Under the pieces are notes generated by a model. The model was not told where the DNA came from. It was given only the letters and a program-made list of their open reading frames with translations, and did no database searches. A DNA stretch of 26,566 nucleotides, taken from positions 1 to 26,566 of IMG/VR virus record IMGVR_UViG_3300027719_000042, one strand, 5' to 3'. Source of the DNA: a virus. The position numbers and the translations under genes are program-made. Shown here piece by piece: positions 1-20,629 of this stretch. The stretch's first letter is position 1, and each line of letters starts with the position of its first letter.

Positions 1-1
1 C

Positions 2-73
2 AAGAGCATCGGGCTATGGCACTTTGCCGGGAGCCTGGCAAAGGCGTTGGAATACGCGGGGAGGATGAAATGA
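2..73 (+). CDS. C-terminal end of an unknown small phage protein (partial)
   Basis: An open frame enters from the left edge and ends at the TGA at 71-73. It encodes about 23 residues ending in FAGSLAKALEYAGRMK. The stop overlaps the ATG of the next gene at 70, and its last codons (GGGGAGGATGAA) supply that gene's ribosome-binding site, so the two are probably translationally coupled. The same peptide pattern recurs in the tiny ORF at 529-597, which plays the same position-and-coupling role for the gene at 594. Function is unknown and the start lies outside the window. Confidence 0.5.
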   Translation, partial: KSIGLWHFAGSLAKALEYAGRMK

Positions 74-366
74 TAGATAAAACTGGAGGGCCTGCGTTTC
101 CGGCATTTATAAGCGGGCATACTGCGGTTGATTTAGTCAACTTTAATTCCACAAGCGGATTATCACTCCGCGATTATTTCGCGGTGCATGCTTCTGATGC
201 TGATATCGATGCGGTTCTTGACGAAAAGGGCAAAGTTGGATTTAAGGTATGGCGGTCTCAGGCTCGTTATATTTTTGCCGACGCCATGCTATATGCCAGA
301 AACTGCGAAGGTGGCGGGATTGATGGGATGACGTCCGACTACATGATAGAGGAGCGTGCAAAATGA
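70..366 (+). CDS. Small phage protein of unknown function
   Basis: This 98-residue protein begins MIDKTGGPAFPAF and contains SLRDYFAVHAS near residue 45, followed by an alanine-rich helix (ARYIFADAMLYAR). The combination of a GGPAFP start, an LRDYFA stretch and an ADAML helix is a recurring pattern in small hypothetical proteins of phages of Gram-negative bacteria; none has a firm function that I know of. The ATG at 70 is chosen over an in-frame ATG at 16 because a strong GGGGAGGATGAA lies just upstream and the stop of the preceding frame overlaps it. The gene overlaps the next one by ATGA at 363-366. Confidence 0.7.
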   Translation: MIDKTGGPAFPAFISGHTAVDLVNFNSTSGLSLRDYFAVHASDADIDAVLDEKGKVGFKVWRSQARYIFADAMLYARNCEGGGIDGMTSDYMIEERAK

Positions 367-542
367 GCTTAACTCATATAGAACTTATTGGTTCCGATAA
401 AAATGATTCTATTACAATTCTAGTCAATAGAAAATCAGGAGTTTATTCCATAGCTTCAAAAGGTGAGTTTTTTGGAATGATAAAACGCTTAAACGTTTGT
501 GATCATGATGACGACTGGGAGGATAGCCATGATATCACTTGA
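363..542 (+). CDS. Small acidic protein of unknown function
   Basis: A 59-residue frame starts at the ATG overlapping the previous stop (ATGA) and ends at the TGA at 540-542. It starts MSLTHIELIGSDKNDSITIL, reads like alternating beta strands, and ends in a strongly acidic tail (CDHDDDWEDSHD). Base composition is distinctly AT-richer than its neighbours, which suggests a separately acquired gene. There is no recognisable family. Its existence rests on the coupled start, the lack of stops and its placement in a run of coupled small genes. Confidence 0.55.
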   Translation: MSLTHIELIGSDKNDSITILVNRKSGVYSIASKGEFFGMIKRLNVCDHDDDWEDSHDIT

Positions 543-1866: not shown

Positions 1867-2325
1867 CTATGCTTCATACGCGATCATAACGCAGTTCCCA
1901 TACCCCGGATCGTTCTCCATGATCTTGACGACCTTCCCCGGCATGGAACGATTCCAGTATATTCGGAAGTGCTCGGCCGTCTGGTGGCGATCCTCCGGCA
2001 CGAGGTCAAAGGCGCAGTGAATCTTGTTATAGATTTTGAAGTATTCGATATCGGCGTAGAACGTGGTTATGAAACAATCGACTCGGAATAGCTCCTTGTC
2101 GATGAAAAGTACAAGCTGCTTTGCCGATGGCCGGGGGCTTCCGTTCGCCACGTCGTCAAGGGTATACCGGCCCTTCTGCTCTTCCTCAACAACGTCAAGG
2201 TGGAGATGCGCCCCGGACCCGCTCCCGGTGTTCCCCATGACGCCGATAATGTCGCCGCGGTGGATAATCTGGCCCGGACGTAGCGTCGTCTCCGCAAGGT
2301 GGGCCAAGCGGGATGTATAAATCAT
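1867..2325 (-). CDS. M23 (LytM-type) endopeptidase with circularly permuted domain order; probable endolysin
   Basis: This 152-residue protein would cleave peptidoglycan cross-links in the periplasm. Usual M23 domains run HxxxD, then a YAH block, then the GQxIGxxGxTGxSxGxHLHFE block. Here the protein begins with YTSRLAHL (H9), continues with GQIIHRGDIIGVMGNTGSGSG and HLHLD (H40, H42), and only then, near the C-terminus, has HCAFD (H103, D107) and PGYGNCVMI. All expected zinc and catalytic residues are present, but the HxxxD half comes last. The start is fixed by the ATGA overlap with the upstream gene and an AAGGAT site, and the stop by the frame, so the order is not a choice-of-start artefact. 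There is no signal peptide, so release would depend on the holin encoded next. The 50-100 linker is of unknown fold. Confidence 0.8.
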   Translation of the reverse strand: MIYTSRLAHLAETTLRPGQIIHRGDIIGVMGNTGSGSGAHLHLDVVEEEQKGRYTLDDVANGSPRPSAKQLVLFIDKELFRVDCFITTFYADIEYFKIYNKIHCAFDLVPEDRHQTAEHFRIYWNRSMPGKVVKIMENDPGYGNCVMIAYEA

Positions 2326-2639
2326 GTCTCTATCCTTGCCCGACCGAGTAGGAAATCGTCATATCGTATTTTTGCGTCTCGGGTTGTCTTTAGTGCCGCG
2401 TCTACGTTTCCATTGCAAATACCTTTTTGTGCTTCCAGGATGGCGATAAGCGCCTGCGTCTGCGGGCCTTGCATCTCCATAAGCGCGTTGACGGCTGGAA
2501 CCATCTGCTCGATTGCCTGCGATTCAGGGGATCGGATTGTAACCCGCTTTCGTACCGCCGTTGCCATAAGCCCGTATATTCCTGTCACGATAAGCCCGAT
2601 CAATACTCCAAGCGCTATGCTTATCAATCCAGAATCCAT
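2322..2639 (-). CDS. Single-TM lysis-cassette protein of unknown function
   Basis: This 105-residue protein has one N-terminal hydrophobic segment (about 4-27), immediately followed by a basic patch (VRKRVTIR). By the positive-inside rule the rest would face the cytoplasm. The soluble part is helical, with a QGPQTQALIAILEAQKG stretch. It is the first gene of the lysis operon and overlaps the M23 gene by ATGA. The topology argues against an inner-membrane spanin. A regulator of lysis or an accessory holin is possible, but no family is recognised. The start ATG at 2639 has a GGGGGTG site upstream and a promoter about 30 bases away. Confidence 0.65.
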   Translation of the reverse strand: MDSGLISIALGVLIGLIVTGIYGLMATAVRKRVTIRSPESQAIEQMVPAVNALMEMQGPQTQALIAILEAQKGICNGNVDAALKTTRDAKIRYDDFLLGRARIET

Positions 2640-3700: not shown

Positions 3701-4144
3701 ATGATAGTCAACATCCTGATTCTTGCTGTAGCGGCGATCTTCTCCGCCTACGTAATCTACTCGGCCTGTCGCAAGTACATTGGCCGCAACCCGCAAGCCC
3801 CGAGCGCATGGACACGGCTCAAGGCGTGGTGGCCCGGTTTCGTCAAGCGGAACATAAACGACGATGATCCGTATGATGATGAAAGCCACGCGGCGACGAG
3901 ATACAGGCATGGCGATTATATTGACTGGGCAACCATACCGGATAAATATAAAGTAGTCGTACTTCAAGGACCGGGGTGGTATGCTGGTGAAGGCGCGGCG
4001 CGCATGTTTCAGGATATGACGCTTGTTTCTTGCGCCGATGATGATATGTGGGACGGGACGGGCGGGGATGACGTACCAGATGATGCCATCATCGGCCCGC
4101 TTCCCCCGTGGCGCGAATCGCTCCGCAAGAGGCCCGGGAAATGA
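3701..4144 (+). CDS. Membrane-anchored protein of unknown function
   Basis: This 147-residue protein has an N-terminal hydrophobic segment (residues 2-22, IVNILILAVAAIFSAYVIYS). A basic and tryptophan-containing stretch follows, then a soluble part very rich in aspartate (NDDDPYDDES, CADDDMWDGTGGDD). There is no recognisable domain. The start has an AAGGAG site at good spacing and the stop overlaps the transglycosylase start (ATGA), so the two are co-translated and may work together at the membrane. It lies under the strong promoter P2, so early expression is expected. Confidence 0.65.
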   Translation: MIVNILILAVAAIFSAYVIYSACRKYIGRNPQAPSAWTRLKAWWPGFVKRNINDDDPYDDESHAATRYRHGDYIDWATIPDKYKVVVLQGPGWYAGEGAARMFQDMTLVSCADDDMWDGTGGDDVPDDAIIGPLPPWRESLRKRPGK

Positions 4145-4614
4145 AGCCCCTTGCCCTGTTGTTGCTTCTCGCCTGTATCCCTATTCACGCCGAGCAAGCC
4201 CGGTCGTTTTCAATCTACGACGCGGCGGTGTTGGGCACGGACATACCGGCCGAGCTGTTCCGGGCGCTTGCCATGGCCGAGAGCGGAGAGCGAGACAGCG
4301 CGACAGGCGACGACGGGGCGAGCATCGGGCGGTTCCAGCTTAACGAAAGGTTCAGGACCGAGCGGGTCAGGCTATACGGGGAGTACGATCCACGCGACCC
4401 GATACAGGCCGGGCGCGTTGCGGCGCAGATACTACAGGCGCATTACGAGCGGTTCCATTCGTGGCCGCTTGCTCTGACCGCCTACAACGCCGGGGCCGGT
4501 TACACGATCAAGCACGGTATACGATGGGCCTACGTGGATCGGGTCCAGATGATGCTTGAACGCATAGGATCGCGGTTCCAGATTATCACATGTGCACGGG
4601 GAATAATCATATGA
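4141..4614 (+). CDS. Lytic transglycosylase (SLT family), probable lipoprotein
   Basis: This 157-residue protein would cleave the glycan strands of peptidoglycan. It starts with a signal sequence MKPLALLLLLACIPIHAEQA. LLAC gives a lipobox with C12, while IHA-E could instead be a signal peptidase I site. The SLT signature is complete: AMAESGE with catalytic E47, GRFQL (63-67, equal to the usual GLMQL), and ALTAYNAGAG (111-120). The start ATG overlaps the previous stop. A secreted or lipidated transglycosylase in the early region, far from the lysis cassette, is unusual. It might remodel the wall during infection, act in superinfection exclusion, or assist lysis. The family call is firm, the role is not. 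Confidence 0.85.
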   Translation: MKPLALLLLLACIPIHAEQARSFSIYDAAVLGTDIPAELFRALAMAESGERDSATGDDGASIGRFQLNERFRTERVRLYGEYDPRDPIQAGRVAAQILQAHYERFHSWPLALTAYNAGAGYTIKHGIRWAYVDRVQMMLERIGSRFQIITCARGIII

Positions 4615-4906: not shown

Positions 4907-7474
4907 ATGCTACAGATTCAGCTTCCCGATTACATAGACTTTTTGAAGTCTAAAATCAAGATCGCGCCTGATACCGGCATAGAGTTCAAGCCGGAGGATG
5001 TCAACCCGATCCTCAAGCCGCACGAGCGCGACAGCGTGCTATGGATGACAAAGGGCGGACAGCGTGCGCTTTTTTCCAGCTTCGGACTTGGCAAGAGCCT
5101 TACGCAACTTGAAGCCTTGCGCCTCCTGATGTCAAGGTCGGAAGGGAAGGCGCTCATCGTCGCACCGCTCAACGTGGTCCCCGAGTTTATCAATGATTCC
5201 ATGTTCCGGGGCCCATCGTTTGAGAAGGAAGCGGCGCGGCAGGGCCTTGACCTTGACAAGCTCCGCATTGACTTTGGCGTTCCCATCGAATACGTCAGGA
5301 CGCAATCGGAGGCAGAGGCGTCTCCGTGCCGCATCGTGATAACGAACTATGAGCGGGTCCGCGACGGCGATATCAACCCGGCATGGTTCACGGCTGTCAC
5401 ACTGGATGAGGCGTCAGTACTCCGCTCTTACGGATCAAAGACGTATCAGGAGTTCTTGCCTAAGTTCCAGCAGGTCCGGTACAAGTTCGTTGCCACAGCT
5501 ACCCCGTCGCCTAACAAGTACAAGGAGCTTATCCACTATGCGGGCTTCCTTGGCATCATGGACACCGGGCAGGCACTTACCCGGTTCTTCCACCGCGATT
5601 CGACGCAAGCCAACAACCTGACCTTGTATCCGCACAAAGAGAAGGAATTCTGGTTCTGGATTTCAACATGGGCGCTGTTCATAACGAAGCCTTCCGACCT
5701 TGGATACGACGATGCCGGCTACGACTTGCCCCCGCTGAACGTCATCTATCACATGGTCAACGTCGATCACGCGACGGCCGGAATTGAGGACGACGGGCAG
5801 GTGAAGATGTTCAGGGACGCCGCGCTCGGGCTCCGCGACGCATCGAAGGAGAAGCGCGACAGCATCGGTTCCCGCATCGACAAGATGCTCGCTATCATTG
5901 AGGACGCTCCGGCCGATCATTTCATCATCTGGCACGACCTGGAGGACGAGCGCCGGGCTATCAAGAGGGCAGTACCGGAAGCTGCGGAGGTCTACGGCTC
6001 GCAGGATTACGAGAAGAATACCGAGATAACCAAAGCCTTCAAGGACGGCACCGTCAAGTATCTGGCCACTAAGCCGGACATGAGCGCCCAGGGCGGTAAC
6101 ATGCAGTACCATTGCCACAAGTGCATATTCCTTGGCATCGGGTACAAGTTCAATGATTTCATACAGGCGATCCACCGCATTTATCGGTTTATGCAGGATT
6201 ATCCGGTCGAGGTGCATATCATCTACGCCGAGAGCGAGCAGGCTATCCTTGAAACGCTAAAGGCGAAGTGGGAGCAGCATAACTACCTCGTCGGGGAGAT
6301 GACAAAGATTATCCGCGAGAATGGCCTTGCGTCAACAAACGTCCTAGACAAGCTGTCGCGGACGATCAGCTTCAACCGCGAGGAAGTAAAGGGCCAGTAT
6401 TACACTTCCATACTGAATGACAATTGCCTTGAGGTTCCAGGATGGGCGGACAATTCCATCGACCTTATCCATACCTCTATTCCATTCTCCAACCATTACG
6501 AGTACACGCCGACGTACAACGATTTCGGGCACAACGAGGATAACCGTAAGTTTTTCGAGCAGATGGACTACTTAACCCCGCACCTCTTGCGCATCCTGAA
6601 GCCGGGCCGCGTCTGCGCCGTTCACGTCAAGGACAGGATCCTGTTCGGCAACGCCACGGGTACGGGAATGCCGACCGTTGACCGATTCAGCGACGCGACC
6701 GCGGACCACTTCGAGCGCCACGGCTTTATGTTCATGGGCCGCATTACCATCGACACGGACGTGGTTCGAGAGAATAATCAGACGTACCGGCTCGGCTGGA
6801 CAGAGCAGTGCAAGGATGGGACCAAGATGGGCGTCGGCTGCCCGGAGTACATCCTCCTGTTCCGCAAGCTCCCGAGCGACCTGTCGCGCGCCTACGCCGA
6901 TGATCCGGTTGTCCACGACAAGATGGACTATACCCGCGCCCATTGGCAGATTGACGCCCATTCGCATTGGAAGTCATCGGGCGACAGGCTCTTGATGCTG
7001 GAAGAACTACGGGCTACGGAAGTATCCGAGCTTCAAGCCAAGTATCGCCAATTTTCACGCGAGAATCCGTACAACTACCGCGATCACGTCAAGCTCGCGG
7101 ATGACCTCGAAGAGGATGGAAAGCTCCCGGCTTCGTTCATGGTTGTCGCTCCCGGATCGGAAAGCCAGTGGATATGGGACGACGTGAACCGGATGCGGAC
7201 GCTGAACGGCGATCAGGCGCGGAAAGAGCTTACAATGCATATCTGCCCGCTACAGTTCGATATTGTCGAGCGCATCATTGAGAGGTTTTCAAACAAGGGC
7301 GAGCTGGTATTCGATCCATTCGCAGGGCTTTCAACCGTGCCGTACATGGCCGTGAAGATGGGCCGTCGCGGGATAGGAACAGAGCTTAATCCTGAATCGT
7401 GGCATGACGGTCTTGTATATCTGAAGGCGGCGGACATGGAAGTCTCGGCCCCGACCTTGTTTGATTTCAGTTGA
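4907..7474 (+). CDS. SNF2-like helicase fused to an N4/N6-type DNA methyltransferase
   Basis: This 855-residue protein has two parts. Residues 1-460 form a superfamily 2 helicase/translocase: Walker A GLGKS (60-64), Walker B LDEAS (166-170), TATP (197-200) and an HRIYR arginine-finger motif (423-427). Residues 500-840 form a methyltransferase in the beta-type order. The catalytic-motif region NSIDLIHTSIPFSNHYEY comes first (S524-I-P-F527, where SPPY or DPPY is usual). The SAM-binding DPFAGLSTVPYMA (803-815) with GRRGIGTELNPE follows. Likely role: modification of phage DNA, perhaps while translocating, to evade restriction. The start has a perfect AAGGAG site. No partner nuclease or specificity subunit is seen nearby, which argues against a complete restriction system. 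Whether SIPF is active is open. Confidence 0.85.
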   Translation: MLQIQLPDYIDFLKSKIKIAPDTGIEFKPEDVNPILKPHERDSVLWMTKGGQRALFSSFGLGKSLTQLEALRLLMSRSEGKALIVAPLNVVPEFINDSMFRGPSFEKEAARQGLDLDKLRIDFGVPIEYVRTQSEAEASPCRIVITNYERVRDGDINPAWFTAVTLDEASVLRSYGSKTYQEFLPKFQQVRYKFVATATPSPNKYKELIHYAGFLGIMDTGQALTRFFHRDSTQANNLTLYPHKEKEFWFWISTWALFITKPSDLGYDDAGYDLPPLNVIYHMVNVDHATAGIEDDGQVKMFRDAALGLRDASKEKRDSIGSRIDKMLAIIEDAPADHFIIWHDLEDERRAIKRAVPEAAEVYGSQDYEKNTEITKAFKDGTVKYLATKPDMSAQGGNMQYHCHKCIFLGIGYKFNDFIQAIHRIYRFMQDYPVEVHIIYAESEQAILETLKAKWEQHNYLVGEMTKIIRENGLASTNVLDKLSRTISFNREEVKGQYYTSILNDNCLEVPGWADNSIDLIHTSIPFSNHYEYTPTYNDFGHNEDNRKFFEQMDYLTPHLLRILKPGRVCAVHVKDRILFGNATGTGMPTVDRFSDATADHFERHGFMFMGRITIDTDVVRENNQTYRLGWTEQCKDGTKMGVGCPEYILLFRKLPSDLSRAYADDPVVHDKMDYTRAHWQIDAHSHWKSSGDRLLMLEELRATEVSELQAKYRQFSRENPYNYRDHVKLADDLEEDGKLPASFMVVAPGSESQWIWDDVNRMRTLNGDQARKELTMHICPLQFDIVERIIERFSNKGELVFDPFAGLSTVPYMAVKMGRRGIGTELNPESWHDGLVYLKAADMEVSAPTLFDFS

Positions 7475-11203: not shown

Positions 11204-11815
11204 CTACGGGTAGAGCATTCCCGCCACGAGGTACGTCGTTCCACCGTCGGCCATCACCTGCAATTCGTAGATGGCCTTGCGGGACAAGTATTCCTCTTCA
11301 GTTGCCGGATGTTCCTCGTACTTGATCGATCCGTCGAAGACGTAGACAAGATACAGGGCGTACTCCTCGTATGCTGGCCGGTCATCGATGATGACTACCG
11401 GAGGAGGAGGCACGCGGTCAACGTACAGGACTCCACCGTCGGCTATAGCCTGAATACGCCATATTTCGCGCCGGTCCGCTATGTCGGATCGAGGCCAGTC
11501 GAGATATTCCTTGATGATGTCATGGGTATCAGGCGCGGCAATGTAAGCATCGGCCGGAGGAGCTTCCTCGATAGGCACGATCTCCTCGCCCTCGATGACA
11601 AAAAGCTGGTCATCGGTATGCGCAAGGTTGTATTCCTCCGCATAGTCGGCATAACTCTGGATCGTGGTGACGGCCTTCGACCTTGCCACGGTTCCTTCCT
11701 GAACTATTTCCCATGCGGAGTTGTACAGGCGGACGTTCGGCACGTCCATGGGAACCTGCGAGCACGAGGCTAGAACGACGGCCAGCAGGATCATGATTAT
11801 CGATTTACGGTTCAT
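11204..11815 (-). CDS. Lipoprotein with internal repeats, last gene of the late operon
   Basis: This 203-residue protein has an N-terminal signal MNRKSIIMILLAVVLASC whose LASC lipobox predicts lipidation at C18. Two similar units follow: IWRIQAIADGGVLYVD (about 118-133) and IYELQVMADGGTTYLV (about 182-197), each preceded by an acidic and arginine-containing helix. A related unit, LYELEAANRGGAWVAY, lies in the neighbouring small ORF. A proline run (PPPPVV) separates the units. The start has a strong GAGGAGGT. A phage lipoprotein at the end of the late operon could be a superinfection-exclusion or lysogenic-conversion protein, or a virion or lysis accessory. None of these is established here. 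Confidence 0.7.
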   Translation of the reverse strand: MNRKSIIMILLAVVLASCSQVPMDVPNVRLYNSAWEIVQEGTVARSKAVTTIQSYADYAEEYNLAHTDDQLFVIEGEEIVPIEEAPPADAYIAAPDTHDIIKEYLDWPRSDIADRREIWRIQAIADGGVLYVDRVPPPPVVIIDDRPAYEEYALYLVYVFDGSIKYEEHPATEEEYLSRKAIYELQVMADGGTTYLVAGMLYP

Positions 11816-11990
11816 CTGTGACCTCCTCGGGTACAGGGAAAGTATACGGCACTTCCCCATTGTACGCAACCCACGCGCCGCCACGGTTGGCCGCTTCGAG
11901 TTCGTACAGCGGCCAGTCGCGGGCCATTTCGTCGTCGGTCAATTCGTTGGCGTGTGCTATCTCGGTCTCATTGTGCAAGCATACAAACAT
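11805..11990 (-). CDS. Small protein between tail fibre and lipoprotein genes, with shared repeat motif
   Basis: This 61-residue acidic protein starts at 11990 after TAAGGAG, ten bases past the tail-fibre stop, and overlaps the lipoprotein gene by 11 bases. LYELEAANRGGAWVAY (about 28-43) matches the repeat found twice in the lipoprotein downstream, with the same spacing from the aromatic residue to the GG. It has no signal peptide. Small genes right after a tail-fibre gene are sometimes fibre-assembly chaperones, but no such family is recognised here. Confidence 0.55.
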   Translation of the reverse strand: MFVCLHNETEIAHANELTDDEMARDWPLYELEAANRGGAWVAYNGEVPYTFPVPEEVTDEP

Positions 11991-13221: not shown

Positions 13222-15606
13222 CTACCTTTCCAGTTCTTTCATTTGGCGTTTAGCCTGAACCTGATCCCCGACTGCTTCGGCCGCCTTTGCCGTTACCGCT
13301 GATAGTATCCATGTATCAAGCTGATCGGTTGCCATAGGCAATTTCACCGTCTTGGCGAACGACTGGAACGCGCCGGATCGTGCAAGCGCCTTTGCCTGCG
13401 CCGGGGTTATTGTGTCGGTTTTTCCGGCGTTGACGATCAAGTCCTGGAACTCGCTGCTCCTGAACAGTTTCCCGACGGCTTCCAGTTTTGCCTTTTCTCC
13501 GCGTGTCAGAGATTCTACAATCGCGCTTGATATTCCAGCGCCAGTCGACGCTCCGAACACTCCACCGCCAAGACCGCTACCGATTGCGGCTCCTCCGGCC
13601 GCGACCGCCCCTCGGCCTATTACACTACTGAGCGCCTTCTCAACGAGGTTCTGCGCCGTCAAGCCTTGCAATAGCGCCTGATTCGCTTTACCTGTTGATA
13701 GCACTGCGGCCCTTGCGTCGGTCAATCGTTTCGATACTTCGTACAAGTCACGGAGTACGGCGTCCGATTCAGGGCCGAGATTCTTGACGACTTGCTTGTA
13801 TACTTCCTTGTTCGCCCGTAGCCCTTGGTACATCTTGGCGAACTCGGAGAACCCGAATTGTCCCTTGGTTGCCCCTGCCCCGGAACGCGCGATTGAAGCA
13901 AGAGCCGTCGCTGTGACTTCTTTTTTCAGGTCGTCCGGCACCGAGTCCATGAGGCGGGTAAACTCTCCCGTTCCGCCCTTGGCCGAAGACGTTATAGCCA
14001 TCCGCATCTTGTCCGCTATTGAACCGGAAAAGTCCTTGCCGAATAGATCGACTATTTTCTTGCCTATCTCTCGCTCTTTGCCGTACATGAGATTGGCGGA
14101 AATAAGTTGTTCCTTGAGTTCAGGGCTTCCAATGTTCCCCACAGTGTCAAGCTGATCCTCGGCAAGCGATCCGTACAGGCGCTTGAGCGCTCCGGCTTCC
14201 ATGTTGCCATACGGCGAGTCTTTCTTGGCTATCGCCTGCCCGATAAGATTCTTTTCGCGCTGTAGCCGGCCATATGTCGTAGTAGGATCGGCCACCATGT
14301 CGAGGAGCTTCTTTTCTTGCGGGGACATTCCATCTGCCCCGACTTCAGTAGCTATATCGGCAAGTAAAGCCTTCGTGCTGTCAAACGTCGCCGGCGTGGA
14401 TTTCGGGACGGCCGCGTCGATCTCGTCGTATATCACCGTTGCGGCGTCTTTCAATTCTTTCTTGGCCGCCATGAGCGAATCCTTGACGCGGGCAGACGCA
14501 ACCGCAGGAGCCGGTGCACCTTCGATGAAGGTCGCCCCAAACTCGTCAAGCACTTGGTCCGCACGCTCGACGGAATTCTTTACCGTTCCGCGCCACGCGG
14601 CTTCTTCCGTGCCTCCTACGATGCTACGGCCAAGCCCTGCGGCAGACCGTACCTGCTCGTTGTCCGAGAATACATCGGCGGGAAGTTCTATTTCAAGCCT
14701 GCGTGCTGCCTCGCGTGCCTGCGGATTTATTGCTGCAAGTTCGGCGACTGTTTTCTTGGCAACCTTGTCACCCGATGCGGCTTTGCGGATGACGTTTCCG
14801 ATATCATCCTCTGATTGAGTCGCGGCTGTTTTTATAGCGGTTGCTGGTGAAGCGAGGCGGGAGGCTCCGATACCGGCCCCGAGTCCGATGGCCGCCTGTG
14901 CAAGAGGACTCGCCCCCTGCTGCTCGGCTACTTTCGAGGCCCCCATTGAAGCGGCCGATCCTGCAAGGTCGGAGGCGGGATTAAAGGCAAGGGTTCGACC
15001 TATGGCGGCTATCTTGGAAGGGTCAGCGGTTGCCGCGAGCGCCGTTGAAGGCCCGAACGTCGCGCCAAGTTTCACTGGTGCACTCAACGCCGCGCCAGTT
15101 CCCAGCCCCGCCGCGCTTGATCCAAGCCCCATGGTCAGCGACTCTAGAACTTCCTGCGCCTTCGTCTGCGGATCCTTTACGCCCAACTTTGCGAACATAG
15201 CCTCGATGCCTTGGCTCGGCGGTAACTGCTGATATTCTTCAGGTAGTATTTTGTTTACTAGCGCGGTCAATGGGTCCCATACCATGGTCGGAAGCGACAT
15301 TGCGCCTTTGACGAATCCACGCGCGGCGACTCCGGCATTCTGTGGAAGCTCGGCTATCGCCTGCCCGGCTATCTGTAAAGGCGTGGGTTTCGGAGCTTCT
15401 ACCGCCGCGCTCGGGGCCTGTCGCGCTGCCGCCGATAGCATGGCCTCTTCTCCGCTAGGCTGTGCGCTAAACGTTCCGGTCGTCTGGCCGGCCGCTTTCA
15501 TCTGCTTGTACTGCTCATACAAACGCGGATCGTTTTTCGGCACGTCTTCGGGGATGCCGGTTATGAGCGTCCCGTCCTTGGCCTTGTAGGTATATGTCCC
15601 GCTCAA
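13222..15606 (-). CDS. Large internal virion/ejection protein (P22 gp16-like position)
   Basis: This 794-residue protein has alanine- and glycine-rich hydrophobic stretches (around residues 170-250 and 660-710) and long helical segments. The C-terminus is helical and charged (GDQVQAKRQMKELER). These features and the position after the gp7-like and gp20-like genes fit the third ejection protein of P22-like phages, which crosses the host envelope with the DNA. P22 gp16 has 609 residues, so this one is longer. No transglycosylase motif was found. It overlaps the upstream gene by ATGA and is followed six bases later by the tail-fibre gene. The name rests on position and composition rather than a clear motif. 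Confidence 0.65.
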   Translation of the reverse strand: MSGTYTYKAKDGTLITGIPEDVPKNDPRLYEQYKQMKAAGQTTGTFSAQPSGEEAMLSAAARQAPSAAVEAPKPTPLQIAGQAIAELPQNAGVAARGFVKGAMSLPTMVWDPLTALVNKILPEEYQQLPPSQGIEAMFAKLGVKDPQTKAQEVLESLTMGLGSSAAGLGTGAALSAPVKLGATFGPSTALAATADPSKIAAIGRTLAFNPASDLAGSAASMGASKVAEQQGASPLAQAAIGLGAGIGASRLASPATAIKTAATQSEDDIGNVIRKAASGDKVAKKTVAELAAINPQAREAARRLEIELPADVFSDNEQVRSAAGLGRSIVGGTEEAAWRGTVKNSVERADQVLDEFGATFIEGAPAPAVASARVKDSLMAAKKELKDAATVIYDEIDAAVPKSTPATFDSTKALLADIATEVGADGMSPQEKKLLDMVADPTTTYGRLQREKNLIGQAIAKKDSPYGNMEAGALKRLYGSLAEDQLDTVGNIGSPELKEQLISANLMYGKEREIGKKIVDLFGKDFSGSIADKMRMAITSSAKGGTGEFTRLMDSVPDDLKKEVTATALASIARSGAGATKGQFGFSEFAKMYQGLRANKEVYKQVVKNLGPESDAVLRDLYEVSKRLTDARAAVLSTGKANQALLQGLTAQNLVEKALSSVIGRGAVAAGGAAIGSGLGGGVFGASTGAGISSAIVESLTRGEKAKLEAVGKLFRSSEFQDLIVNAGKTDTITPAQAKALARSGAFQSFAKTVKLPMATDQLDTWILSAVTAKAAEAVGDQVQAKRQMKELER

Positions 15607-18030: not shown

Positions 18031-18673
18031 GCAATTGCAACATCGGTATCCACGGATTATTGGTCGGTGCCGCTCCGACGGCCGCCACTCTTTTCAAGCG
18101 TGCGACCACGTGACTTCCTATCTTGATTGCAGGCGTGAAGCTCGTCAAGTTCACAATCATCATCGTCTTGCTCGGAGTATTGGCCGGTATCAAGATGTCC
18201 GGCGTGGTGAATACTGCTGGCCACGTCCATACGCCATTGACATCGGCATATCCGTATTCAAGCTCGAAGCGCACGTATTTATTCGCAACGTCAAGTCCGT
18301 TTGTCGTCAGGTGCAAATGCCAGAATACTTCCGAGCCTTCCTTCCAGCTATGAATCATCTCCTGTGATTCGCATACGTTGTAATCATTCACGGCCCATTG
18401 TGGCATGGATATATTGCCATTGATGACCGCAAGCGATGGGATACCGGCGGCAACCGTCCTGACGATTATCGGAAAGTCGATGTCTACCCACGGATTGACG
18501 CCGTATTCCCATTGCTGCGTCGTCGCGTTGTATTGAAGCAAGTCAAGGTCGCGGCTGTTCCCGAGCAGCACGGTATTGAGCAGGGCGACGAGCTTCTCGA
18601 ATTCCTTGATGCTCCTGAAATCCTTGAACGCTTCCTGAAGCTGTGGGCGGGAGAACGATAGTTGTTCGCTCAT
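17984..18673 (-). CDS. Virion-associated protein of unknown function
   Basis: This 229-residue protein starts with a helical segment (ALLNTVLLGNSRDLDLL). It continues with a beta-rich body holding WVDIDFPI, MIHSWKEGSEVFWHLHLTTN, YVRFELEYGYADVNG and SHVVARLKRVAA, and ends IPMLQLHVQLDTLGSR. The body segments recur in proteins from many podovirus late operons, usually annotated as hypothetical or tail proteins. It overlaps the gp10-like gene by ATGA, the place where P22 carries its tail needle (gp26) and gp14. It has no long coiled coil like the needle, so it is not a clear gp26. Confidence 0.6.
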   Translation of the reverse strand: MSEQLSFSRPQLQEAFKDFRSIKEFEKLVALLNTVLLGNSRDLDLLQYNATTQQWEYGVNPWVDIDFPIIVRTVAAGIPSLAVINGNISMPQWAVNDYNVCESQEMIHSWKEGSEVFWHLHLTTNGLDVANKYVRFELEYGYADVNGVWTWPAVFTTPDILIPANTPSKTMMIVNLTSFTPAIKIGSHVVARLKRVAAVGAAPTNNPWIPMLQLHVQLDTLGSRNIGSK

Positions 18674-20070
18674 ACCGTAAGGGGCTCTATCCCCATTTCA
18701 AGCCGCGCCACCGAAATCAAGGCCCGGCTGTCGCCAGTGAACCGCTGGATGCGCCAGTTTGACAAGTGCCCCTGGTGCCACCACGAAAGCCGGCGGGTAC
18801 GGTCGCCGAGCATCCCGACCTTGATCGGCCGGTCATGGCTCCACGTCATGCCGTCGACAGAATAGCTTGTTGAGATGTATGGATCTTCACCGGCTTCGAC
18901 GCGCCCGGTCAGGCAGACAAGTTCCAGCATGTTAATCAAAGCCCCGTGGCCTTCGTTGTACGCGATCCCCGTGCCGAACTCCCACCGGCACACCTCGCCG
19001 AAGTGCCGCGCCGTGTTCGCGTCCATGTAGCCGTAGTCGTTGGTCTGTGAATCGCACACAAGCCATTTCTCATAGCAGTATACGAGGTCGACAGCCCGGT
19101 ACTTCTCGAATCCGACCTGCGAGCTGGTCAGGAAGTACCATACCGGCTGTCCGATGGCCTTTGACGCCTGAAGGTCATATACCATCGTCCGGTCGGGAAG
19201 TCGTACCCATAGATGTTCGTGCCCCGCGTGGAGCCGAGATTCAAGAACGACGGCCGCAAGTTCGGCGGCGGTGTACTGCAAGAGGATCGTATCGATCTCG
19301 CGGGTACTTAACTTCTGCGTGCTGCCGAGTACGCCGAAGTATATCCCCGGCGCCTCGTTCCGGCCCGAGCCGATGAACGCGATGTACTCCGCGAAGATGG
19401 CCGCCGCATAGGTTCCAACCGCTCCCTTTTGGAGTTGCGCTCCGTTTATGCGGCTGAACGGAAATCCTGTCCCGCCGACGTTCTGGAAGAACTCGATAGT
19501 GTACCGGTTGACCGCGCATATTTCGTTGCGGAGTTTCAGCACGGTCACGATTGGATCGGGGTCAACTTCCGAGCTTCCATACTTGAGCGGGTCCACGCTG
19601 AACGGGTTGGCAAGGTCGGTCACGACAAGGAATTCGCCGTCGGTCGTCATGAAGTAGCCGTCTACCCATACGACTGACAGCGCCGTGCCAAGATCAGCAT
19701 CAACTACCTGCTGGAGCAGTACACCGTTCCAGTAGTACAAACGGCCGCCTGACGTTATCGCCAGCCGATCGAACGAATACGCGAATGAGCACTGACCGCC
19801 CGCTCCAACGTCGCCGAGCACCGTCTCGACTCCGAGCGCGTTGACGCTGACGAGCTTTGTACCCATGACGCGATACAAGACGTCGTTCCAGTTTATGCCG
19901 CCGCGCGATGTTCCCGCGCTTGCCCCAAGGCTGATGGCACCTTCAGCCGGCCTCAGATATCCCGCGCTGATTCCCGTCTCTTTCGGCACGGGTACCATAT
20001 TGACAGGGTATGAGGTTCGGAAGTCTGCGGCGTCGTCGGTGAAGATTCCGCTCAGGATGGGGACTTGCAT
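18670..20070 (-). CDS. Packaged DNA stabilisation protein, P22 gp10-like (tail hub)
   Basis: This 466-residue protein closely matches the P22 gp10 family (472 residues in P22). The opening MQVPILSGIFTDDAADFRTS and the following YPVNMVPVPKETGISAGYLRP are the family's hallmark. A WD-like, beta-propeller-type sequence follows, with repeated YYWNG, VVWVDGYFMTTDGE and YTIEFFQNVG blocks. It binds below gp4 to close the portal channel and carries the needle and tailspikes. The start at 20070 is preferred because family members begin at MQVPILS; an in-frame start at 20142 would add 24 arginine- and serine-rich residues from the upstream gene. Confidence 0.92.
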   Translation of the reverse strand: MQVPILSGIFTDDAADFRTSYPVNMVPVPKETGISAGYLRPAEGAISLGASAGTSRGGINWNDVLYRVMGTKLVSVNALGVETVLGDVGAGGQCSFAYSFDRLAITSGGRLYYWNGVLLQQVVDADLGTALSVVWVDGYFMTTDGEFLVVTDLANPFSVDPLKYGSSEVDPDPIVTVLKLRNEICAVNRYTIEFFQNVGGTGFPFSRINGAQLQKGAVGTYAAAIFAEYIAFIGSGRNEAPGIYFGVLGSTQKLSTREIDTILLQYTAAELAAVVLESRLHAGHEHLWVRLPDRTMVYDLQASKAIGQPVWYFLTSSQVGFEKYRAVDLVYCYEKWLVCDSQTNDYGYMDANTARHFGEVCRWEFGTGIAYNEGHGALINMLELVCLTGRVEAGEDPYISTSYSVDGMTWSHDRPIKVGMLGDRTRRLSWWHQGHLSNWRIQRFTGDSRALISVARLEMGIEPLTV

Positions 20071-20071
20071 C

Positions 20072-20629
20072 TTACGGGAGTACCTGGAACACGATGTCGA
20101 ATGCAATGTTCCCGACCGATGCGACCGCGCCCTGGATGACACGGATGCCGGTTCCGGGCTGGACTTTCAGGCGGCCATTAATTCCCGGCTGTGCGCCTTC
20201 AACCATGTTGCTGCGGAAGTACGTCGGCAGGGCGGTTTCCTCGGTGAATATGGAATTGAATCCGAGTACCGCACCCGCTGTCGCCCCGCCACCAGGTGCG
20301 AGCCTCCCGGATATTCCTACACGCAAGGGAGCCTGTGCCGTGTCCATGCGAGTGAAGATCATTTCCGTGAGCGTTGCGCTGTCAAGCGTGGCCGCCGTGC
20401 CTCCCGTACCGATAGCCGTGGTCCGGGTCAGGTACAAGTCTACCGCGAGCGTCCCGACGACGGCTACGGCACCGGAGGCGATAGGCACGACGCTACCGAT
20501 CTCAATGGTTTTGTCAGATCCGTTCCAGAGGTCGAAATAGACCTTGTTGGCTCCGGCGGCGGCGGGCGGTACGAAGAGCTTGAACAGCTGGCCTTCGGGG
20601 TCCATTTTATCGGTTTTCATGGTCAACAT
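20072..20629 (-). CDS. Late-operon structural protein of unknown function
   Basis: This 185-residue protein starts MLTMKTDKMDPEGQLFKLFV after a strong AAGGAGG. It is beta-rich and alanine- and glycine-rich, with repeated short strands (GSVVPIASGAVAVVGTLAVDLYLTR). It lies between the gp4- and gp10-like genes, where it would be placed if it is a neck or head-completion accessory. No family is recognised. A second methionine at codon 4 is an alternative start. Confidence 0.55.
   Translation of the reverse strand: MLTMKTDKMDPEGQLFKLFVPPAAAGANKVYFDLWNGSDKTIEIGSVVPIASGAVAVVGTLAVDLYLTRTTAIGTGGTAATLDSATLTEMIFTRMDTAQAPLRVGISGRLAPGGGATAGAVLGFNSIFTEETALPTYFRSNMVEGAQPGINGRLKVQPGTGIRVIQGAVASVGNIAFDIVFQVLP

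Follow-up and report, generated by a model that had tools for sequence, protein, structure and literature searches.

The window analysed here is the whole of a 26,566-nucleotide stretch of viral DNA (IMG/VR record IMGVR_UViG_3300027719_000042, positions 1 to 26,566), and its subject is an open reading frame (ORF) on the minus strand encoding a 152-residue protein in which the two halves of an M23 peptidase domain stand in swapped order. The ORF begins at an ATG (2323-2325) that forms a four-nucleotide overlap (ATGA) with the stop of the gene before it, and its own stop (1867-1869) lies just ahead of the start of a holin gene. The reading frame, this start and the positions of H9, H40, H42, H103 and D107 agree with a preliminary description of the locus, which gave no strand, whereas the linker, put there at about 50 residues, was found to be a conserved one of about 36. 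The gene and its parts are listed below; invariance refers to the 11 members of the family described further on.

1867..2325, minus strand: circularly permuted M23 peptidase gene, 152 residues (ORF, profile scores, homologues and a ratio of non-synonymous to synonymous substitution rates, dN/dS, of 0.095)
2185..2322, minus strand: residues 2-47, canonical C-terminal M23 half, encoded first (YTSRLAHL ... GDIIGVMGNTG ... HLHLDVV); PF01551 positions 45-92; hhalign against 55 canonical domains, P 7e-16
2299..2301, minus strand: codon of H9, counterpart of lysostaphin His329, the catalytic histidine of YxHL; invariant in 11/11; structural alignment to 4qpb, model 1..77 against chain 321..384
2200..2208, minus strand: codons of H40-L41-H42, the HxH motif (by analogy H42 zinc ligand and H40 catalytic); H40 and H42 invariant in 11/11
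2077..2184, minus strand: residues 48-83, new linker from canonical C-terminus to canonical N-terminus, with two short helices and invariant Q70, F74, D76 and F80
1873..2076, minus strand: residues 84-151, canonical N-terminal M23 half, encoded last (FITT ... HCAFD ... GKVV ... GYGNCVMI); profile tests
2041..2043, minus strand: codon of Y95, candidate oxyanion tyrosine by analogy with lysostaphin Tyr270 and LytM Tyr204 (PMC9662197); invariant in 11/11
2005..2019, minus strand: codons of H103-C-A-F-D107, the HxxxD zinc motif; H and D invariant in 11/11
1945..1956, minus strand: codons of W124-N-R-S127, family signature; all 11 members have WNR and 10 have S
1894..1905, minus strand: codons of G141-Y-G-N144, last strand; the chain ends eight residues on, inside a hairpin that is uninterrupted in canonical M23

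Against the Pfam M23 profile (PF01551) the protein as encoded scores 43.6 bits, with residues 3-50 on profile positions 45-92 (gathering score 28.7), and once rejoined in canonical order it attains 54.5 bits, spanning positions 21-92, a comparison that the preliminary description had proposed and that favours the rejoined order. All 11 family members match PF01551 at E <= 0.01. A separate hidden Markov model (HMM), built from 58 canonical viral M23 domains, finds two out-of-order domains in the native protein (51.0 bits for the second half, followed by 5.2 bits for the first) and gives 67.3 bits to the rejoined one; in 20,000 shuffles of residues 51-152, neither the score of the rejoined protein nor that of the first half was ever reached. 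Rejoining raises the best-domain score in every family member, by 6.8 to 29.0 bits, while the 58 canonical controls rotated at the same place all lose (mean -50 bits), and the earlier claim of a circular permutation is thereby borne out across the family. Glocal alignment sets the ITT, HCAFD and GYGN of the window protein on their canonical counterparts. When a profile of the C-terminal part only (residues 82-152) was run against 5,897 ORFs, the best 30 matches outside the family were all M23 ORFs, which make up 3% of the set, and among the top 60 the match lay upstream of HxH in 56 of the 57 M23 matches; some loci had been picked by the GYGN pattern, which favours their rank here, while L017, L018 and L107 had not. 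An hhalign comparison of the C-terminal part built from two sequences aligned only 23 columns. Judged by these profiles, the C-terminal part is homologous to the N-terminal half of M23. The motifs run YxHL, HxH, HxxxD, GYGN in 11/11 members, as opposed to HxxxD, GYGN, YxHL, HxH in described M23 members, and the protein is therefore classed as a permuted variant and not as an ordinary member.

Homologues of the same order in viral databases, which the preliminary description had named as a check, are represented by ten further members on ten other IMG/VR metagenome contigs, with 40-90% amino acid identity to the window protein. Peptide-pattern searches first recovered only the closest copies (L001 and L002); the distant members came from scanning viral contigs for DNA encoding GYGNxVxI followed by an in-frame stop, and alignment-based searches added more, so that the final set, the window protein included, has 11 proteins, each from its own IMG/VR metagenome contig. 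L002, from another metagenome, is a 90% identical copy, and the nine more distant members share 40-59% of their amino acids with the window protein. A quick tree of rejoined sequences places the 11 members in one group beside two proteins of canonical order, L107 and L148, with modest support (92 and 86 by the Shimodaira-Hasegawa-like approximate likelihood ratio test, SH-aLRT).

The genes on either side are those of a lysis cassette:

2322..2639, minus strand: small protein with an N-terminal membrane segment, lysis-cassette partner; upstream, 4-nucleotide overlap; weak match to phrog_9428, and by eye similar to a protein in L211
1447..1857, minus strand: holin, GTA_holin_3TM, phrog_3427 (E 7e-22 and 8e-14); directly downstream

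In the related P22-like phage MW202867 (65% capsid protein identity with the window) the corresponding slot, after a small membrane protein and before a GTA-type holin, is filled by a Peptidase_M15_4 protein with an endolysin annotation. Given its neighbours, a small membrane protein on one side and a GTA-type holin on the other, and the M15 endolysin in the equivalent slot of MW202867, the permuted M23 gene most likely encodes the endolysin of the phage, and the role suggested in the preliminary description is backed by this context. Small membrane proteins also adjoin other members; Rz-like matches lie at L209 and L211, and overlapping spanin-like pairs, identified by eye, at L207, L097, L101 and L204. 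The spanins suggest diderm hosts. A different assignment would make the SLT-domain protein encoded at 4108-4614 (plus strand), which has an apparent signal peptide, the lysis enzyme and would leave an active permuted M23 peptidase to entry, as a virion-associated enzyme, or to some other step; we regard this as unlikely, given the place of the gene in the cassette, the M15 peptidase of MW202867, and the membrane proteins and spanin-like pairs beside other members.

The structural predictions are compatible with a single closed domain. AlphaFold2 returned an uninformative model from two sequences only (predicted local distance difference test score, pLDDT, 29), and, on the 11-member alignment, one compact and confident domain (pLDDT 93.0, predicted template modelling score 0.88), in which strand 2-12 opens the chain and strands 130-139 and 143-151 lie just before the new C-terminus. 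Order-dependent structure searches matched lysostaphin (4qpb) over one half only (model 1..77 to 321..384, 64 residues, 2.5 A), as they did the LytM domain of DipM (7qrl, 52 columns), and the 4qpb offset sets H9, H40 and H42 on His329, His360 and His362, provided that no gap intervenes. Weak full-span matches (Z ~4) were to barrel-sandwich-type domains (NusG, RNA polymerase, NqrA), and Foldseek against the PDB and BFVD gave no match at E <= 0.001. In lysostaphin zinc is held by His279, Asp283 and His362 (PMC4286107), and in M23 the first histidine of HxH and an upstream histidine act on water (PMC9662197); by analogy, we infer that H9, H40, H42, H103 and D107 would converge on one zinc site. 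The halves of two chains might instead pair in a domain-swapped or trans-complementing dimer, with the active site between molecules. The linker is long enough for this in principle, and the monomer prediction would also be compatible with a swap, yet the compactness and confidence of the predicted monomer and the conservation of linker positions, as expected of a packed connection, make such a dimer distinctly improbable.

Conservation across the family takes in both the catalytic motifs and the linker. H9, H40, H42, H103, D107, Y95, W124-N125-R126, G130 and G141-Y142-G143 are invariant in 11/11, as are Q70, F74, D76 and F80 of the linker; the invariant H9 stands 31 residues ahead of H40, which fits the position of the second catalytic histidine of M23, about 30 residues before HxH (PMC9662197). 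None of the canonical M23 domains examined shows the WNR(S) signature. Since some degenerate M23 folds have regulatory roles (PMC9662197) and an SLT-domain protein is encoded nearby, one could imagine a catalytically dead LytM-like regulator of the EnvC/NlpD type that activates another hydrolase; degenerate members lack the zinc ligands and both catalytic histidines, however, and their invariance here makes a dead regulator very improbable.

The gene is under purifying selection: between the window and L002 dN/dS is ~0.095 (dN 0.054, dS 0.57), with 42 of 58 changes at third codon positions. An assembly artefact, a frameshift or a decaying gene fragment, for which nothing speaks beyond the unusual order itself, is hardly credible in view of this ratio, the tight gene junctions and the eleven contigs; an assembly error, raised in the preliminary description, is ruled out by a contig identical to the window over 7.3 kilobases (L001), by L002 with its different upstream gene and by the nine distant members, the homologues alone being enough to refute it. 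The permuted M23 gene thus looks like one for a real, conserved and rearranged enzyme and not like a broken gene. The upstream gene in L002 (48-374) is phrog_937, hemolysin-like, as against that at 2322-2639 in the window, with the same 4-nucleotide ATGA overlap. Between these two contigs the module boundary falls exactly at the start codon of the permuted M23 gene.

Taken together, the gene very probably encodes a circularly permuted M23 zinc endopeptidase, of the LytM/lysostaphin type, that acts as a phage endolysin, and the family most likely has a single origin and is enzymatically active. Several points weigh against this. In the window protein on its own the HxxxD stretch does not reach significance (117 of 400 partial shuffles did as well), so that the support comes from the family, which makes HxxxD firm; the single origin has an SH-aLRT value of only 85; the SLT transglycosylase-domain protein (Pfam E 8e-13) is a second possible cell-wall or lysis enzyme; and the zinc-site geometry is drawn by analogy from lysostaphin and LytM. 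In the mechanism we propose, the chain opens with the strand bearing the YxHL histidine, followed by the HxH strand, and the conserved linker of about 36 residues then leads to the canonical N-terminus, HxxxD and an end just past the GYGNxVxI strand. Since the chain starts at YxHL and ends after GYGNxVxI, the native hairpin between them is opened and the old termini are joined. The fold would close as a single domain with zinc held by H103, D107 and H42 and water activated by H40 and H9, as in lysostaphin and LytM. The enzyme, which has no recognisable signal sequence, would build up in the cytoplasm, be released by the neighbouring holin and cut peptidoglycan cross-links. It is possible, though we advance it only tentatively, that a lasting phage lineage arose from one ancient permutation of an M23 endolysin, and that its opened hairpin, conserved linker and WNR(S) insert give the substrate groove another shape or gate activity, which would imply a substrate range or a control that canonical M23 enzymes lack.

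Compared with M23 as described (PF01551; lysostaphin, LytM, ShyA and phage M23 endolysins), the permuted family has both halves homologous, contains HxxxD, HxH and the upstream histidine and passes the gathering score, and it differs in its swapped halves, its conserved 36-residue linker, WNR(S) and the break in the GYGNxVxI/YxHL hairpin. Its nearest relatives in the tree, L107 (IMG/VR 3300031973_001073) and L148 (Ca. Peribacteria), align end to end with the N-terminal half (ITQxY..PxYY..F..GHxGLDLVP..YGNxVxI) but have the canonical order, HxxxD then HxH. Among peptidases of the cell wall, permuted NlpC/P60 clades (YaeF/Poxvirus G6R, LRAT-like; PMC6403190) come closest as a precedent: they belong to a cell-wall-peptidase superfamily and likewise have a swapped order of catalytic residues, but their fold, that of cysteine peptidases, has no relation to M23. 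HABAS and other barrel-sandwich hybrid domains, to which the weak full-span matches of the model belong, form a group of folds in which circular permutations are known, but they are not enzymes of the M23 type, and the parts of that account consulted describe no permuted M23 (PMC11515920). The M15 endolysin of MW202867 occupies the same slot and belongs to another peptidase family, and the degenerate LytM factors EnvC and NlpD have lost the catalytic motifs, all of which the permuted family keeps.

A permuted M23 was not found in Pfam, in PHROGs or in the structure searches, and literature searches for permuted M23, LytM, lysostaphin or endolysin found none, in line with the statement in the preliminary description that no such lysin was known to have been described. 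Two scans of GTDB genomes with short peptide patterns gave nothing in the first case and, among the best 80, first-half matches only in the second, and tblastn of INPHARED phages with three members gave partial matches only. A Gordonia phage lysin A (tblastn, residues 13-109) that looked to be of the same order proved to be canonical M23, and the other viral M23 loci considered (L008-L012, the 58 control domains, L107, L108, L118 and L122) were all of canonical order. When fragments of canonical N-halves and C-halves were aligned by MAFFT together with the window protein, they were misplaced because the two M23 halves resemble each other, and the family alignment solved their placement.

M23 peptidases are a well-studied family and are widely investigated as antibacterials; their fold is described as very conserved (PMC9662197). 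A natural permutant indicates that this fold can close and, judging by conservation, work with new termini and a broken hairpin, and the topology and folding of M23 enzymes could be studied with the family as a natural template. With L107 and L148 as canonical-order relatives for comparison, it clearly exemplifies a circular permutation that became fixed in a phage lysis gene. Order-dependent sequence and structure searches see a permuted M23 only by half, and such genes are therefore likely annotated as fragments.

The window is a fragment of a P22-like short-tailed phage. On its minus strand lie the P22-like coat protein compared above with that of MW202867 (23227-24486), a head closure protein (18670-20142) and a DNA transfer protein (13222-15606). 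An 855-residue protein on the plus strand (4907-7474) has matches to phage DNA helicase families (phrog_16) along most of the chain and, within the C-terminal third, to DNA methyltransferase families; a 19-nucleotide stretch common to this helicase gene (4999-5017) and the holin gene (1570-1588; blastn E ~0.003-0.006) is possibly due to chance. A lipoprotein-like protein (VRLYNSAWEIVQEG ... QSYADYAEEYNL), similar by eye in the two contigs, is encoded a long way from the M23 gene in the window (11204-11884, minus strand) and just upstream of it in L211 (4936-5637).
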